DNA of 35,521 bases from Wohlfahrtiimonas populi (lineage in GTDB: Bacteria; Pseudomonadota; Gammaproteobacteria; Cardiobacteriales; Wohlfahrtiimonadaceae). Both the position numbers and the translations under genes were made by a program. Every line of letters begins with the position of its first letter. The stretch's first letter is position 1. Below the pieces are notes generated by a model. It saw only the letters and a program-made list of their open reading frames with translations, was not told the origin of the DNA and did not search any database. The DNA is taken from positions 1 through 35,521 of the forward strand of contig NZ_MVDN01000010.1 of assembly GCF_002006795.1 (NCBI RefSeq), written 5' to 3'. Below are positions 4,007 through 31,576 of the stretch, in pieces.

Positions 4007-5395
4007 TTAAGCGCTCTGCACTTCTGCATCCACTGGTTTTGGAATCAAGAATGATACCAAGAAAGCCAATACAGTAATGCCTAAACCGAGCAACATACCA
4101 TTGAAATAGCCATCTTTAGAAGTTGCATTCATCGCCTGCATTGCTGGTAATAACGCAAAACTTAAACCTGCACCAATATGGAAAGCGGCAGCATTCATGC
4201 CTGGCAAAAAGCCTGGATTATCTTTGGGTGATAATACAACACCTAAACCATTCAACATGATATTAGCTGTACCTGCATAAGTCACACCAATGAAGATCGT
4301 CGCTGCAATCAAGATTGCCATAGTATTTAAACCTAAATACATCAACGCCACAACGCCGAGTAAGCTACCAATTAAACCTACACGCAAGATTCTGTTATAA
4401 CCATAAACAGGTGCTAATTTACCCATGAATGGACCGACTAACCAGCCGATCAAAGCATAAGGTGCTAATAGATAAATCGCCGTAGCATTTGCAGTTAAGC
4501 TATAACCAATCTCACCATTTTGTGCGAATGAAACCACCAAGCCATTCACAATCGCAAAAATACCTGTCATGGTTAAGACTGTCGTTAACAGTAAAGCCCA
4601 CGTTGAGCGCTTTTTGAGATCCGCAATGGTCACCAATGGATTGATCACTTTCTTTTCCACTTGTACAAACAGAGTGAAAGAAACTAAAGCCACCACCACA
4701 GAACCAATCACTAATGGAATATTGCTTGTGAAGTTCAATGCCGTTAAGAAACCAGCTAAAGTGATCACTAGGAAGATAACGCCAACCCAGTCCATTCTCT
4801 GCCCTGCGTTCGGTTTAGATTCTGGCGCACCTTTCAAAATGAATGGCAATGTAATCACACCAACGGCAGCAATGAACCAAAATACTGGTCTAAAGCCAAA
4901 GTTCGTTGCGATATAACCACCCAAGAAAGCATCAATCCCTGCAATACCACCATTCACCGCTGTGATAATGCCCATCAAAATCCCATATTGCTTAGGATCT
5001 TTCACTTCATGATGAAGCATCAACAAACACAATGGCACAACTGGACCTGAAACACCTTGAATCACACGAGATAAGAAATAGATCTCGATATTGGGTGCTA
5101 AAGCCGCCACAACGCCACCAACAGTTGTAATTGCAATCAAAGTAAAGAGGACCTTTTGACGACCAACAATATCACTCAAACGAGGGATAAAGATTGAGAA
5201 TAACGCCGCTGACATAAAGAATGCCGTTTGCGTTAAACCTACAGTCGCTTCTGATGTGCCTAAGCTCTTTGCAATCGTCACCAATACAGGATTGAGCATA
5301 CTGGCATTCAGCTGGAATGCCATACATGCCATTAACAGCGCCACCATGAGTGGCACTACATTGGTTTTCTCCTTAAGCGGAGTGCTATTTGTCAT
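4007..5395 (-). CDS. MFS transporter (DHA-type), probably nucleoside-linked
   Basis: 462 residues with 12-14 predicted membrane segments. MFS signatures are visible: the loop 2-3 motif PRLSDIVGRQKVLF and RVIQGVSGPVVPLCL in the fourth segment (motif C-like, as in 14-segment drug:H+ antiporters). The ATG at 5395 is chosen over the upstream TTG at 5410 because it has a GAGG site seven bases ahead. It overlaps the 3' end of the nucleoside hydrolase gene by 11 bases, implying coupled translation. Fold similarity is to drug exporters, but the coupling to the hydrolase suggests a nucleoside, base or ribose substrate. Direction of transport cannot be read from sequence. Confidence 0.85.
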   Translation of the reverse strand: MTNSTPLKEKTNVVPLMVALLMACMAFQLNASMLNPVLVTIAKSLGTSEATVGLTQTAFFMSAALFSIFIPRLSDIVGRQKVLFTLIAITTVGGVVAALAPNIEIYFLSRVIQGVSGPVVPLCLLMLHHEVKDPKQYGILMGIITAVNGGIAGIDAFLGGYIATNFGFRPVFWFIAAVGVITLPFILKGAPESKPNAGQRMDWVGVIFLVITLAGFLTALNFTSNIPLVIGSVVVALVSFTLFVQVEKKVINPLVTIADLKKRSTWALLLTTVLTMTGIFAIVNGLVVSFAQNGEIGYSLTANATAIYLLAPYALIGWLVGPFMGKLAPVYGYNRILRVGLIGSLLGVVALMYLGLNTMAILIAATIFIGVTYAGTANIMLNGLGVVLSPKDNPGFLPGMNAAAFHIGAGLSFALLPAMQAMNATSKDGYFNGMLLGLGITVLAFLVSFLIPKPVDAEVQSA

Positions 5396-6338
5396 AGTCC
5401 ACCTCGCCAATGCGCTCTAGCGCATCCACGATTAAATCCCAAAAATAAGCATGATCCAATTTTACAGCCACTTGCGTGTGGCAATCAGGTTCTGGCGGAT
5501 TTCTGAAATCAGCAACCGTCATACCCAATGTCAAAGTACCTGTTAACTCAATATCCACTGGCACTTTCTGCGTTGTCATTACTTTGGGATCAATCACATA
5601 AGCGACAGCACATGGGTCATGTACAGGTGGATAATCAAAGCCTTGTGCCTTTTTATACATTTTGCCAAAGCATTCTAAAAGCTCTAATACAAACTTAGCT
5701 GGCTTTGTGCCAACTTTAGTAATCTTTTCAATCACTTCAGGGGTTGCCAATGCTTGATGAGTTAAGTCTAAACCAACCATTGTTAATGGCCATTTTTCAT
5801 TAAATACAATGTGCGCTGCTTCTGGATCGATTTTGATGTTGAATTCTGCAACTGCACTCCAGTTACCGACATGATAACCGCCGCCCATCAATACAACTTC
5901 TTTCACACGCTCAACAATTTTTGGCTCTTTTCTTGCAGCCATTGCAATATTTGTTAAACCGCCTGTTGGTACGATTGTTACTGTTTTTGGTGGGTGATTC
6001 ATGATCGTTTCAATGATCAAATCCACAGCATGACGAGAATCTAATTCTAATGTTGGTTTTGGTAATTCTGGACCATCCAAACCTGATTCACCATGAACAT
6101 CTGGAGCGATTTCGATATCTCTTACTAATGGTCTAACGCAACCTGCTGCAAATGGTACACCCACAATATTTGCAACTTTAGCAATTGCCAATGCATTGTG
6201 TGTTACTTTTGCTAATGTTTGGTTACCAACAACTGTTGTGACTGCTAACAATTCAATCTCAGGATTACCATGCGCTAGAAGTATTGCAATGGCATCATCA
6301 TGGCCTGGATCACAATCTAAAATTATTTTCTTGGTCAT
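5385..6338 (-). CDS. Inosine-uridine preferring nucleoside hydrolase (RihA/RihB-like)
   Basis: 317 residues, the normal length for the family. The N-terminal calcium-binding motif DCDPGHDDA (residues 8-16), the MGG loop near 151-153, AEFNIKIDPEAA (164-175) and the catalytic HDPCAVAY (H240, D241) are all intact. The enzyme splits ribonucleosides into free base and ribose in the cytoplasm for salvage. The sequence is close in style to E. coli RihB (YeiK), but the substrate (pyrimidine versus purine) cannot be decided. A ribosome site (AAGGTGA) lies ahead of the ATG. It is the first gene of a two-gene operon with the overlapping MFS transporter. Confidence 0.93.
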   Translation of the reverse strand: MTKKIILDCDPGHDDAIAILLAHGNPEIELLAVTTVVGNQTLAKVTHNALAIAKVANIVGVPFAAGCVRPLVRDIEIAPDVHGESGLDGPELPKPTLELDSRHAVDLIIETIMNHPPKTVTIVPTGGLTNIAMAARKEPKIVERVKEVVLMGGGYHVGNWSAVAEFNIKIDPEAAHIVFNEKWPLTMVGLDLTHQALATPEVIEKITKVGTKPAKFVLELLECFGKMYKKAQGFDYPPVHDPCAVAYVIDPKVMTTQKVPVDIELTGTLTLGMTVADFRNPPEPDCHTQVAVKLDHAYFWDLIVDALERIGEVDYDK

Positions 6339-6423: not shown

Positions 6424-8160
6424 TCATGTCATAAAATTATCGTTTTTATCTTTGCATTTAGCAGTAAACATGCTAACAAAAAATTGTGGAGGTATAGGTA
6501 CTCTGTAATGACGGCTTGCTGTTAATATTAATGGATATAAGCCTCCTTTAATGGCACTAAGTTCTTCAAAATATTTATTAGAATTAATTTCTTCCTCTAA
6601 CAACCTCTTATATTCAGTTATAGCAATTTCTTCAGAATTACTACTTGTATGAATGAAGACCTTACCATGTGCATCATTATTATTAAAATAATACTTTTCA
6701 GAAAAATCATCGGGAAACCAAGTTTGAAAAGTACATTTTTTTAAAATACCTGCTTTAGCTGCTGCTAAATCTGAATAAATATCATTCCAACCAAAAATAG
6801 ATGAAACCAGTTGTATGAAAGGATATAAGATGCTTGCTGTTGTTGCTTCTTCAAAATATTCTTTTGTATCATCTTTAGGGTGATGATACAGATCTCTATA
6901 TTCTCTAAAAACAGTAGGATATTTGCCATTACTTATAAACAAGCTGGCTATTCTATCGAGCATTTGTGATACATAATTTAATATAAATTTCTCATCTTGA
7001 TCAACTTGCATTAAAAATAAAATACACAACATTAAATCAATAGTTTGGTCATCTGAGTATGGCGAAAAAAGTAATGGATTATTTTGAATAATATTTTTTA
7101 GAATTAATAATTTTAATTCCAAAGCTTCGCGTAATTGCGCTTGTTTCTCTTGTTCATCTTTAAAATTATCATATAAATAATTCAACCATAATCCTGATAA
7201 TGATAATTGACCTAGAACCTCATAAAGTTTTAAATTAACATCAACATCACAATTTGCATTAATAAGCCATGATAATCCAAATTGCACCTTACAAGAATTG
7301 ATTAGCTTGGCTGTAAAACACTCCAAAACTGAGGCATACAAACCCATTATTTTTTGGAAAATACTATTAATTTGTGTTGGCACTTTATTCGTATCACTTT
7401 CATATTTTTTCACCATATCCCAAGCAAATAAAAGAGATTTTTCAGAAGCTAAAAGTGCACTTTTTATATTATTATCAGATTTTGCCCAATTAAATAATAT
7501 GCCATTAGCTAAATATAATTGTCGTAACGCAGTTAATACTTGTTCATTTTTATCATAATCAATACATAACAAATTAATAATTTGATTAAAATACTTAAAA
7601 GATATTTCAGGCTCTTCAATCATGGATAATGATTTACGTAATAAACTTCTAAAATCAATTTCTTTTTCATTATGAATAAATAAAGAATCATCTAATAAGT
7701 ATTTTTCAATCTTTTCAGCAATTACCTCCCCATTCCATTCTTCAAAAGTAATTTGAGAAGTACTATTATTCCTGACATAACCTTCATAATTATCTCGGAC
7801 TTCTGTTTTCATTCTGCCACCAAAAGTAGGACAAATAACAATAGGGAGATCTGCATATTCTTTTGGTAAACGTAACCTAAGATATACATCTTTAATGTCA
7901 TTCATTGACTGCCTTAGTGATTGCACACTACTATCCCATTCTTTTCTATCCAAATCCCCTGCTTTAATTGAAAAAAGATAAACTTTTACTTCAGTATCAA
8001 TTTTTCCTACTGCTGCAACATCTACACCGTATTCTCTTCCTCCTTGCAAAGGAGTTGAAAAAACATTCAACCCCATTTGGGATAATAGATTTGGCAGAAC
8101 AACATCAAGTTCATCTCTTTCTCTAAGTGACGATAAATATTCAGTTAAAACCAAACGCAT
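6424..8160 (-). CDS. PD-(D/E)XK-like nuclease-domain protein, candidate defence gene A
   Basis: 578 residues, not a protein I recognise by name. Residues 1-150 look like a restriction-endonuclease-like fold: a helix, then QGGREYGVDVAAVG (D47 in the usual metal-binding position), then a beta strand VYLFSIKAGD (K66). This gives D-x(16)-S-I-K, so the usual Glu/Gln two residues before the Lys is Ser64. A further strand, LPIVICPTFGG, and FEEWNG near 139-144 follow. Residues 160-578 are helical with no clear motif and many Lys, Asn, Ile and Leu. No membrane segment or signal peptide. Its ATG overlaps the stop of gene B by one base (TAATG), so translation is coupled. Base content is far more AT-rich than the flanking metabolic genes, suggesting acquisition by transfer. 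Confidence 0.6.
   Translation of the reverse strand: MRLVLTEYLSSLRERDELDVVLPNLLSQMGLNVFSTPLQGGREYGVDVAAVGKIDTEVKVYLFSIKAGDLDRKEWDSSVQSLRQSMNDIKDVYLRLRLPKEYADLPIVICPTFGGRMKTEVRDNYEGYVRNNSTSQITFEEWNGEVIAEKIEKYLLDDSLFIHNEKEIDFRSLLRKSLSMIEEPEISFKYFNQIINLLCIDYDKNEQVLTALRQLYLANGILFNWAKSDNNIKSALLASEKSLLFAWDMVKKYESDTNKVPTQINSIFQKIMGLYASVLECFTAKLINSCKVQFGLSWLINANCDVDVNLKLYEVLGQLSLSGLWLNYLYDNFKDEQEKQAQLREALELKLLILKNIIQNNPLLFSPYSDDQTIDLMLCILFLMQVDQDEKFILNYVSQMLDRIASLFISNGKYPTVFREYRDLYHHPKDDTKEYFEEATTASILYPFIQLVSSIFGWNDIYSDLAAAKAGILKKCTFQTWFPDDFSEKYYFNNNDAHGKVFIHTSSNSEEIAITEYKRLLEEEINSNKYFEELSAIKGGLYPLILTASRHYRVPIPPQFFVSMFTAKCKDKNDNFMT
6444..6476. repeat. Left copy of 33-bp imperfect direct repeat
   Basis: 30 of 33 bases match 9976-10008, with the three mismatches adjacent. 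This copy lies inside the 3' end of candidate gene A and encodes its segment SMFTAKCKDK. The two copies bracket the two-gene cassette. Confidence 0.8.
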
Positions 8161-9839
8161 TATAAATCTTCCTTACAATTATCTTTTTTGTATTCCTTTA
8201 AAATTAATCCATGACCATGTGGATCTAGGGAGTGCATCATTGGTAAAAATGTATTTCTACCCATTGTGTGCAATACGCTTTCTTGTCTAGGAAAATTATC
8301 AACTTTAGAAATACTTCCTCGACCATATAAAATAGTTTGCCTGCTAATTAAGGATAAAAAACCATCTTTATGTGCACTCTTAAAACCTATCGCTACTTGA
8401 TCTTGCCAAATCATATTTCTATAAGCTCTATTTTCTTTTGATGTATGTAATTCCAAAAGCTTAGGTAATTTATTTAAATCTTCAAGATATTGATCTATTA
8501 AAATTTTTTCATCATATATCCATTTATTTTTCTTATTATTTTTAATATGGTTTTGAAAATATTTAGTAAATAATGTTGGATAATTAAGCACGATATACCG
8601 TAAGATCTCTTTCATGCCTTCTTGTTCATTTTTTTTAGTATGTAGTAACAAAGAAAAGATGTATGAAACCATACTTTCAGGGTAAATGAACAGCCAACTA
8701 TATGCTTTTTTAGCTAAGTAAAGTGATGGATTATGAATAACAGTGCTATGAAGTTGGTTGATATCAACAGAGATATTATTTTTATCATGAAGCATGACAT
8801 TCCAAATATGGTAAAAGCTCCCTATTAAACGAAAATTTTGAGATAAAAAAATGGCTGTGATTAATTTCTCCAACGTTTCTTGTGTATTAAAAAAACTTTT
8901 ACTGAAATGATCAAAAATACTCAAATCTAAAATAATATTATTTTTATGATTAAAAGTTGCAACAAAATCTAAAATTTTGGTGATCTCTTTTTTGCTAACT
9001 AAATTCATAAGCCAATAATCTATTTGTTGTAATGTACCTTTATTATTTGGATTTACTCTTAAAATCACTTCGATAAATTTTAATTCTAGTTCACCTAACA
9101 TATTATTATTATTAAAACGTAGAAAGCATGCACAATTATGAATTAAATCATCATCTATATGTAACAAAATTCTATCAGATAGTAATAATATTTCTGTTTC
9201 ATAACAACTATCTTTATTACCTACAGAAACTAAAAATCTAAGAATAACTAAATATAATTCTGTACTTTCTTCTTGTAATATTTTCCCTATTTTTTTTAAG
9301 ATTATAAATATATATTCCTGAGATATAGTTTCACATAAACTCAATGAGAAAATTACTAATCTCAATAAATGCTCATTATCTGTTTCTAGCAACTCTATTG
9401 ATTTTTCTATATATAGCTGCTTATTAATGCGATAACCTGCTAATAAAAACCAATCTAAATATTGATTATATTTATCTTCTTTCAATACATTTTCAAAAAA
9501 GGTATCGAATGATTCTTTCTGAGTAGATAAATAATTGATAAAAATTCTTTTAGGTTCCCCGCTTGCCCCATCATTCCCAGATTCATTCGCAAGATGCAAG
9601 TAACAATCGAAGACCAAATAAATATCAAGGTCAATAATCTTTACTAATTCCTCTAATATATAGAATGATGTGAAAAAATGAGGGCTATCTTTTTTTAACT
9701 CTACAAAAAGCTTTAATACATCTATTTCACCAGTCGCATGCTGACTACGAATAGCTTCTGTAAGTTCTTCTCCAAAAACATAGTCATCTTCTTGATCTTT
9801 ATTTTTATAATAAGCTTCTACTAATTCTTCGATATTCAT
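8160..9839 (-). CDS. Unrecognised helical-repeat protein, candidate defence gene B
   Basis: 559 residues, no family recognised. The protein is almost entirely alpha-helical with repeated Leu/Ile-rich blocks of roughly 35-45 residues, suggesting an ARM/HEAT-like solenoid; no Walker A, nuclease or membrane motif is seen. The last 85 residues change character (WQDQVAIGFKSAHKDG, then GRNTFLPMMHSLDPHGHG), with several His and Gly, and may form a separate small domain. It is the first gene of the pair, starts at an ATG with an AGG site five bases ahead, and ends in a TAATG overlap with gene A. Like gene A it is very AT-rich. A scaffold or sensor role partnering the nuclease-like protein is inference. 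Confidence 0.55.
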   Translation of the reverse strand: MNIEELVEAYYKNKDQEDDYVFGEELTEAIRSQHATGEIDVLKLFVELKKDSPHFFTSFYILEELVKIIDLDIYLVFDCYLHLANESGNDGASGEPKRIFINYLSTQKESFDTFFENVLKEDKYNQYLDWFLLAGYRINKQLYIEKSIELLETDNEHLLRLVIFSLSLCETISQEYIFIILKKIGKILQEESTELYLVILRFLVSVGNKDSCYETEILLLSDRILLHIDDDLIHNCACFLRFNNNNMLGELELKFIEVILRVNPNNKGTLQQIDYWLMNLVSKKEITKILDFVATFNHKNNIILDLSIFDHFSKSFFNTQETLEKLITAIFLSQNFRLIGSFYHIWNVMLHDKNNISVDINQLHSTVIHNPSLYLAKKAYSWLFIYPESMVSYIFSLLLHTKKNEQEGMKEILRYIVLNYPTLFTKYFQNHIKNNKKNKWIYDEKILIDQYLEDLNKLPKLLELHTSKENRAYRNMIWQDQVAIGFKSAHKDGFLSLISRQTILYGRGSISKVDNFPRQESVLHTMGRNTFLPMMHSLDPHGHGLILKEYKKDNCKEDL

Positions 9840-9897: not shown

Positions 9898-9975
9898 ATT
9901 ATTAAGTAAATCAATAAAGAGTATTTCAAAATCACTTCAATAATATCCCAAAGCAAAAATATTCAAAAAATTCAC

Positions 9976-10008
9976 TTTTATCTTTGCATTTAGCCACAAA
10001 CATGCTAA
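9976..10008. repeat. Right copy of 33-bp imperfect direct repeat
   Basis: Matches 6444-6476 at 30 of 33 bases. It lies between the cassette and the metH riboswitch and overlaps the likely metH promoter. Confidence 0.8.
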
Positions 10009-10012
10009 TAAT
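9984..10012 (+). promoter_or_regulatory. Likely sigma-70 promoter for metH leader
   Basis: TTGCAT (9984-9989) and AATAAT (10007-10012) are separated by 17 bases. Transcription would start near 10020, about 16 bases before the riboswitch. Most of this promoter lies within the right copy of the direct repeat. Confidence 0.5.
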
Positions 10013-10035
10013 AAAAACACGTTCTGTAAAGGACA

Positions 10036-10133
10036 CTTATCAAGAGTGGTGGAGGGATAGGCCCTGTGAAACCCGGCAACCTGAACAATGTTTAAGGTGC
10101 TAACTCCCACAAGTACTGTACTTGAGAGATAAG
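10036..10133 (+). ncRNA. SAM-I (S-box) riboswitch
   Basis: The S-box consensus is clear: P1 CTTATC (10036-10041) pairs with GATAAG (10128-10133). After it come CAAGAG...GGAGGGA, GGCCC, GAAACCCGGCAACC, AGGTGC-TAACTCC, and a P4 hairpin (10110-10115 with 10119-10124). When S-adenosylmethionine binds, P1 is stabilised and the downstream terminator at 10147-10190 can form, switching metH off. S-box RNAs are common in Firmicutes; in most gammaproteobacteria methionine genes use MetJ/MetR or other SAM RNAs, so its presence here is notable. Confidence 0.95.
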
Positions 10134-10146
10134 AGGATTGGATTTT

Positions 10147-30197: not shown

Positions 30198-30866
30198 TTA
30201 AGCCATATTTAAATGGCTCTGATCTTTATGATCCGTTGCCATTTTCTTCAAGATGTAATTCAGCAAAACACCATACAACGGCAAGAAAAATAGCGCACAA
30301 ATGATGATCTTAAACGCATAATCCACCATTGCGATTTCTTGCCAATTTGCCGCCATAAATGGATCTTCACTCATATAAAATGCAACGCTGAAGAACACAA
30401 TCGTATCAATCAAGTTACCTGCAACCGCAGCAGCACTTGGCGCAACCCACCATTTTTGTTGACGGCGCAAATAACTGAACACAGTAATATCCATCAACTG
30501 CCCAACTAAATAAGCAGCAAAACTTGCCAATGCAATACGTGCCACAAACATGTTGAATTGAGAAAGTTCACTCAAGCCCATCCATTGCCCTTTAAAAAAT
30601 ACAACGGATAAAACATACGAGATTAATAACGCTGGCATCATCACTACAAAAATGATCTTACGTGCAAGGGATGCCCCAAATACGCGGATCGTTAAATCTG
30701 TGGTTAAAAAGATGAATGGAAATGTGAAAGCGCCCCATGTTGTGTGAAAGCCAAAAATCGTAAATGGCAACTGCACCAAATAGTTACTGGATGCAATGAT
30801 TAAAATATGAAAAAACGATAACTGATACAAAGCACGGTGGCGTTGTTCGTGTGTAAAACTATACAT
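30198..30866 (-). CDS. yhhQ: Queuosine precursor (preQ0/preQ1) transporter
   Basis: 222 residues with six or seven membrane helices. The YhhQ/ECF-type pattern is visible: [37 protein letters not shown] (early Asp/Arg), [17 protein letters not shown] and [14 protein letters not shown]. In E. coli YhhQ imports 7-deazaguanine precursors of queuosine. Its ATG overlaps the end of queC by eight bases, so synthesis and uptake genes are coupled and share the preQ1 riboswitch. The gene ends at a hairpin. Confidence 0.93.
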
Positions 30867-31527
30867 GATGTTCCCTTTCTGCTAAATATGTCGCTAACCC
30901 TTGTTCGCGCAATTGGCAACTTGGGCACTGCCCACAACCGCCTTCCACGCCTTCATAACAAGTGTGTGTATATTCTTGAATAAACTCTAACTGCCCCATT
31001 TGATCTGCCAATGCCCATGTTTCAGCTTTGGTTAAATACATTAAGGGCGTGATGAGATTGAATTTATAATCCATCGCTAAATTCAGCGTCACATTCATGG
31101 ATTTAATGAACACATCACGACAATCGGGATAGCCACTGAAATCTGTTTCACATACGCCAATGATGATATCTGTAATGCCATTTTCCTTGGCGTGACAACC
31201 TGCCAATAGTAGAAATAGCGCATTGCGCCCTTCCACAATGCTGTTGGGATAAGGTTCACCATCATTATGTATAATCGTGACAGAATCATCCGTTAACGCA
31301 CTGTGCGTTACAGTTTTAATCACAGAAGTATCAATAAAAGTTTGGGAAACACCTAACTTTTCAGCAATGAGTTTAGATTTATCCAACTCAATTGCATGGC
31401 GCTGGCCATACTGAAAAGTAATCGTAGAAACATTCTGCATGCCATAATTTCGAATGGCTTGCAATAAGCATGTGGTGGAATCTTGTCCGCCAGAAAAGAT
31501 CACCAATGCCTTTTTTGAAGAAAGCAT
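30859..31527 (-). CDS. queC: 7-cyano-7-deazaguanine (preQ0) synthase
   Basis: 222 residues, normal family length. The PP-loop SGGQDSTT (residues 12-19) binds ATP, and C190, C198, C201 and C204 ([10 protein letters not shown]) bind zinc. [15 protein letters not shown] and [11 protein letters not shown] are further family marks. It converts 7-carboxy-7-deazaguanine to preQ0 using ammonia and ATP. No other queuosine synthesis gene (queD, queE, queF) is in the window. The leader carries a preQ1-I riboswitch that overlaps the AAGGA ribosome site, so translation should drop when preQ1 is plentiful. Confidence 0.97.
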
Positions 31528-31532
31528 ATTAA

Positions 31533-31570
31533 TTCCTTAGTTTTTTAAAGTGGGAGGTTTTCGAACCACG
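31533..31570 (-). ncRNA. preQ1-I riboswitch, translational type
   Basis: Read on the minus strand: a GTGG/CCAC stem, the loop TTCGAAAACCTC, and the hallmark A-rich tail TTTAAAAAACTAAGGA. The loop CCU can pair with AGG of the ribosome site to form the H-type pseudoknot and hide it. Layout and tail match the Bacillus queC leader class. It ends about six bases before the queC ATG. Confidence 0.92.
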
Positions 31571-31576
31571 GATGCT

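Follow-up and report, generated by a model that had tools for sequence, protein, structure and literature searches.

Olokun is a two-gene system that is credited, in PMC10121019, to Millman et al. (2022, Cell Host Microbe 30:1556). It is listed among the phage defence systems, with the mechanism given as unknown (PMC12926258, PMC12592470), and one table groups it under nuclease activity (PMC10855318). We found no published mechanism for the system. The gene pair discussed here comes from Wohlfahrtiimonas populi (assembly GCF_002006795.1, contig NZ_MVDN01000010.1, positions 1 to 35,521), and this whole stretch of 35,521 nucleotides is referred to below as the window. Judged by its sequence, the pair is almost certainly a divergent copy of the OloA-OloB pair of Olokun (Table 1).

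The assignment is carried by matches over the full length of both proteins. The 578-aa protein matches the PADLOC model for OloB (PDLC03926, 2.1e-161), with residues 2-562 aligned to positions 3-552 of 556, and the 559-aa protein matches the model for OloA (PDLC03925, 1.6e-56), with residues 4-556 aligned to positions 25-595 of 596. When relatives of the two proteins (58 of OloB and 47 of OloA) were compared with PADLOC, they matched the OloB and OloA models only. The relatives from E. coli, which share 37% (OloB) and 22% (OloA) identity with the window proteins, are recognized by both models as well (3e-207 and 4e-111, respectively). The candidate is a known system, real and horizontally acquired, and not a new one. 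The defence role that the initial annotation had proposed is now predicted from the identification of the pair as Olokun, a known phage defence system. It is very probable that the pair is an Olokun anti-phage system, a two-gene operon that was gained horizontally and inserted between uriH and metH, and that can be predicted to protect its host.

Table 1. Coordinates of the Olokun genes, the flanking features and the direct repeat in the window
Feature	Coordinates	Strand	Remarks
oloA	8160..9839	(-)	559 aa, first gene transcribed; HEAT/ARM-type solenoid and small C-terminal beta part
oloB	6424..8160	(-)	578 aa; N-terminal PD-(D/E)XK-like domain (~residues 1-155) and alpha-helical C-terminal domain
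OloB PD-(D/E)XK-like domain codons (residues 1-155)	7696..8160	(-)	strand/helix order of model
uriH, left flank, outside system	5385..6338	(-)	NCBIfam NF052221, 7e-158
metH SAM riboswitch, right flank, outside system	10034..10135	(+)	Rfam RF00162, 87.3 bits
Direct repeat, left copy	6433..6483		includes, together with adjoining bases from 6424, the final 12 oloB codons and the stop
Direct repeat, right copy	9965..10015		between oloA start and metH riboswitch

The genes are coupled, sharing one base in the sequence TAATG, and they are flanked by housekeeping genes for a uridine nucleoside hydrolase (uriH) and a methionine synthase under SAM riboswitch control (metH). Their G+C content is 26.5% (oloA) and 29.1% (oloB), against 40.4% for uriH and 41.9% for metH; the rest of the window, outside the cassette, has 37.9%. 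The initial annotation had described the pair as two long, coupled, AT-rich genes between housekeeping genes, and this description is borne out. Low G+C content is also found elsewhere in the window, in ORFs at 330-1164 (26-27%). These are two adjacent small ORFs that weakly resemble UmoC, a flagellar regulator (2e-4 and 3e-9, under the NCBIfam cut-off). A connection between the SAM riboswitch and oloAB was considered and dropped, because the riboswitch faces away from the pair and belongs to metH. A further riboswitch of the window, of the preQ1 class (31531-31575, minus strand), lies immediately upstream of an ORF at 30859-31527, which is followed by a gene for a Vut_1 vitamin uptake transporter (30198-30866).

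Evidence of the insertion comes from the direct repeat that bounds the cassette, which the initial annotation leaves unmentioned, and from related genomes. The two repeat copies share an exact match of 19 nt, whereas none of 500 shuffles gave more than 13 nt. In another genome of the same genus (G004), uriH and metH are adjacent without the cassette, and the junction (L136) contains a single copy of CATAAAATTATCGTTTTTATCTTTGCATTTAGCCACAAACATGCTAATAATAAAA, the sequence that is found on either side of oloAB in the window. Two matches to the repeat in G004 were counted as one copy, because their offsets fit overlapping contig ends. In a second genome of the genus (G002), uriH and metH are also adjacent. 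The end of oloB, AKCKDKNDNFMT (12 codons followed by the stop), reads host intergenic DNA. The idea of an accessory island gained by insertion, already put forward from the sequence of the locus, is upheld by the empty site in G004 and by the patchy presence of the pair. The repeat is not a generally dispersed one, since it occurs twice in the genome of origin and elsewhere only in G004 (40 genomes). Nor is it a general boundary of Olokun, as similar repeats are absent at four other Olokun loci. No integrase gene was found on the 92.5-kb contig to which the window belongs. A less likely idea is that the cassette is a minimal mobile unit, brought into a specific intergenic target by a recombinase acting in trans. 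The reverse complement of 6484-6520, which encodes the conserved end of OloB (RHYRVPIPP), resembles by eye the start of the SAM riboswitch at 10046-10082 (GTGGAGG-ATAGG); the likeness is possibly due to chance, or to microhomology used by the insertion.

A scan of GTDB species genomes led to 80 fetched loci, and in all of them oloA is located directly upstream of oloB, nearly always with an overlap; two of the loci (L020 and L030) have a split reading frame for oloA. Of 398 genomes sampled evenly across the same phylum, nine have OloB, counting one short fragment and two partial proteins, and each of the nine has an adjoining OloA. The further OloA matches in this sample are weak (E > 7e-5), as is expected for helical repeats. 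The homologs are therefore paired and do not occur mostly singly. They are also sporadic and do not occupy a core position: OloB is present in the genome of origin and in 2 of 143 relatives, and among E. coli genomes relatives were found in 14 of 5426. The phage collection contained no relative at 1e-5. When DNA of individual copies was used as a query against E. coli, the Mixta copy gave a match and the Pantoea copy gave none. In a Tolypothrix plasmid (L011, 2610-7740), genes for ISAs1 transposases separate an oloA-like gene from oloB.

Proximity to known defence genes, which the initial annotation had named as a point to survey in other genomes, was seen for relatives, but not for the copy in the window. 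In a plain listing, drawn up with no random-gene baseline, genes for type I restriction, Septu, Gabija, PARIS AriA, AbiL and AbiH are among those closest to the relatives, and NA-iREase1 also occurs among the neighbours. Plasmid copies adjoin CBASS-like, NACHT and restriction genes. Among ten genes that flank the pair within the window, PADLOC detected no other defence gene.

OloB was modelled by AlphaFold2 with a mean pLDDT of 91. At the N-terminus, two helices are followed by three strands (32-35, 48-53 and 58-65), a helix (82-97), a strand (107-112), a helix and a strand, which is the order of the PD-(D/E)XK fold. D47 is located before strand 2 and K66 after strand 3 of the model. The GVD...SIK stretch that the initial annotation had singled out as a nuclease-like core of the second gene is indeed there, and contains G45, D47 and K66. 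A comparison of 88 OloB sequences, with divergence down to 27% identity, identified E14, D19, G40, G45, D47, K66, R72, W75, Q80, G114 and G115 as invariant. In 81 of the 88, an acidic residue (E or D) occupies position 88. Residue 64, two positions before the lysine, is never acidic (S in 64 sequences, T in 14, V in 7, L in 2 and A in 1). According to the model, OloB thus has the PD-(D/E)XK fold but an incomplete version of the classical motif, since the order of strands and helices and the residues D47 and K66 fit, and residue 64 is non-acidic.

Searches with OloB returned little. The Foldseek comparison of the N-terminal part with the PDB aligned it with FokI (probability 0.96, rmsd 4.9, E 0.73); no Foldseek match of OloB had an E-value of 0.001 or lower, and among the matches to the PDB and to viral models, which are mainly chance helical ones, the FokI alignment alone is meaningful. 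The OloB profile did not match any PDB sequence, and OloB did not match any nuclease family of Pfam. The conservation is highest in the N-terminal domain. The remaining part of about 400 residues is conserved too, is helical, and resembles nothing known.

OloA is a helical protein, as had been anticipated from its sequence. The model (pLDDT 85) consists of a long solenoid with more than 20 successive helices, and the OloA family profile matches HEAT/ARM proteins of the PDB at 5.4e-15. The conservation climbs towards the C-terminus, where LYG, P533 and P540 are located, and the N-terminal part varies most. The distinct His/Gly-rich end that had been noticed in this protein is present (SLDPHGHG), but it is peculiar to the window copy, and the family consensus in this region is LDPxGLDYxLRxFR. 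Plasmids of the Klebsiella/Enterobacter type carry an intact gene for an OloA of 300 aa, which overlaps oloB (L007, 4096-6674). From the conservation of the C-terminal half, and from this Klebsiella relative that retains it alone, we infer that the C-terminal half of OloA couples to OloB and that the variable N-terminal half senses.

The best supported reading is that OloA senses infection and controls the PD-(D/E)XK-like OloB, which would act on DNA. OloA, as the putative sensor, would recognize a phage component or process, and would hold OloB by way of its C-terminal region, the more conserved part. Upon infection, OloB, licensed by OloA, would use its N-terminal domain to act on DNA, and this action would block phage replication. 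Catalysis by OloB is predicted to be likely, and we rate the nuclease mechanism at slightly better than an even chance. Two bolder ideas appear doubtful. OloB could represent an unrecognized branch of the PD-(D/E)XK fold that does without the usual acidic residue, with OloA supplying or positioning the missing part and neither protein cutting alone; separately, the same doubt attaches to the cassette as a minimal mobile unit.

The main rival to the sensor-nuclease reading is an Olokun in which the PD-(D/E)XK domain of OloB is catalytically dead and binds nucleic acid, and the effector role falls to the helical C-terminal portion of OloB or to a recruited factor of the host. The domain might bind instead of cut because the (D/E) of (D/E)xK is absent from every relative. 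Inactive restriction endonuclease folds of defence proteins are represented in Pfam (NA-iREase1), and some 400 OloB residues outside the domain are conserved as well. However, E14, D47, K66 and Q80, all without exception in the alignment, look like an active site, as does the mostly acidic position 88, and acidic residues that have moved are known in this fold from the Cfr10I/Bse634I group. On balance, a non-cutting domain is possible, but rather unlikely.

The other two alternatives concern the pair as a whole. It was initially annotated as an undescribed system. That it looked novel is explained by the lack of both proteins from Pfam and NCBIfam: no family of these collections covers OloA or OloB, the sole trace being a sub-threshold HEAT match, and the relatives are labelled as hypothetical proteins in RefSeq. 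A defence system unrelated to the known ones is nevertheless refuted by the full-length matches to both PADLOC models, and hardly credible. It is also very unlikely, if less so, that the pair is a recently gained, non-functional relic in which host sequence has replaced the end of oloB. The target site does supply the last 12 codons of the gene. Yet both reading frames are intact and of full length, the OloB end that is conserved in the family (RxYRxPVPP, residues 550-558) has been kept, and the tail past it varies among relatives.

The locus thus provides a known defence system that is rare in its genus. Since the insertion can be compared with an empty sister site, it indicates that Olokun can be carried as a lone two-gene cassette. 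The invariant set of E14, D47, K66 and Q80, the structural model, the strict co-occurrence of the two proteins and the natural variant with a short OloA make the mechanism of Olokun testable.

In comparison with the PD-(D/E)XK superfamily (FokI-type and related nucleases), OloB has the alpha-beta-beta-beta-alpha-beta arrangement, with the aspartate at strand 2, the lysine closing strand 3 and the glutamine just ahead of the next helix, but it differs in having no acidic residue in (D/E)xK. The nuclease fold that had been suspected for the pair is in this sense predicted in the OloB model. OloA is built of helix pairs arranged as a solenoid, like the HEAT/ARM proteins, and its profile matches alphaRep, coatomer and adaptin chains. 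In contrast to these, it adds a C-terminal region with short strands and a conserved LYG...SI...RxE...PR...LDP motif. The variant with the short OloA resembles the window pair in OloB (4.8e-81), in the C-terminal half of OloA (1.8e-18) and in the overlap of the genes, and differs from it by the missing N-terminal half of the solenoid. With Olokun itself, the window pair agrees in both genes, their order and overlap, the full-length homology and the patchy distribution. It is set apart by its diverged sequence, by its location as a lone cassette between housekeeping genes, by the direct repeat and by the host-derived tail of oloB, whereas the E. coli copies at the two loci that were viewed are situated at prophage ends.
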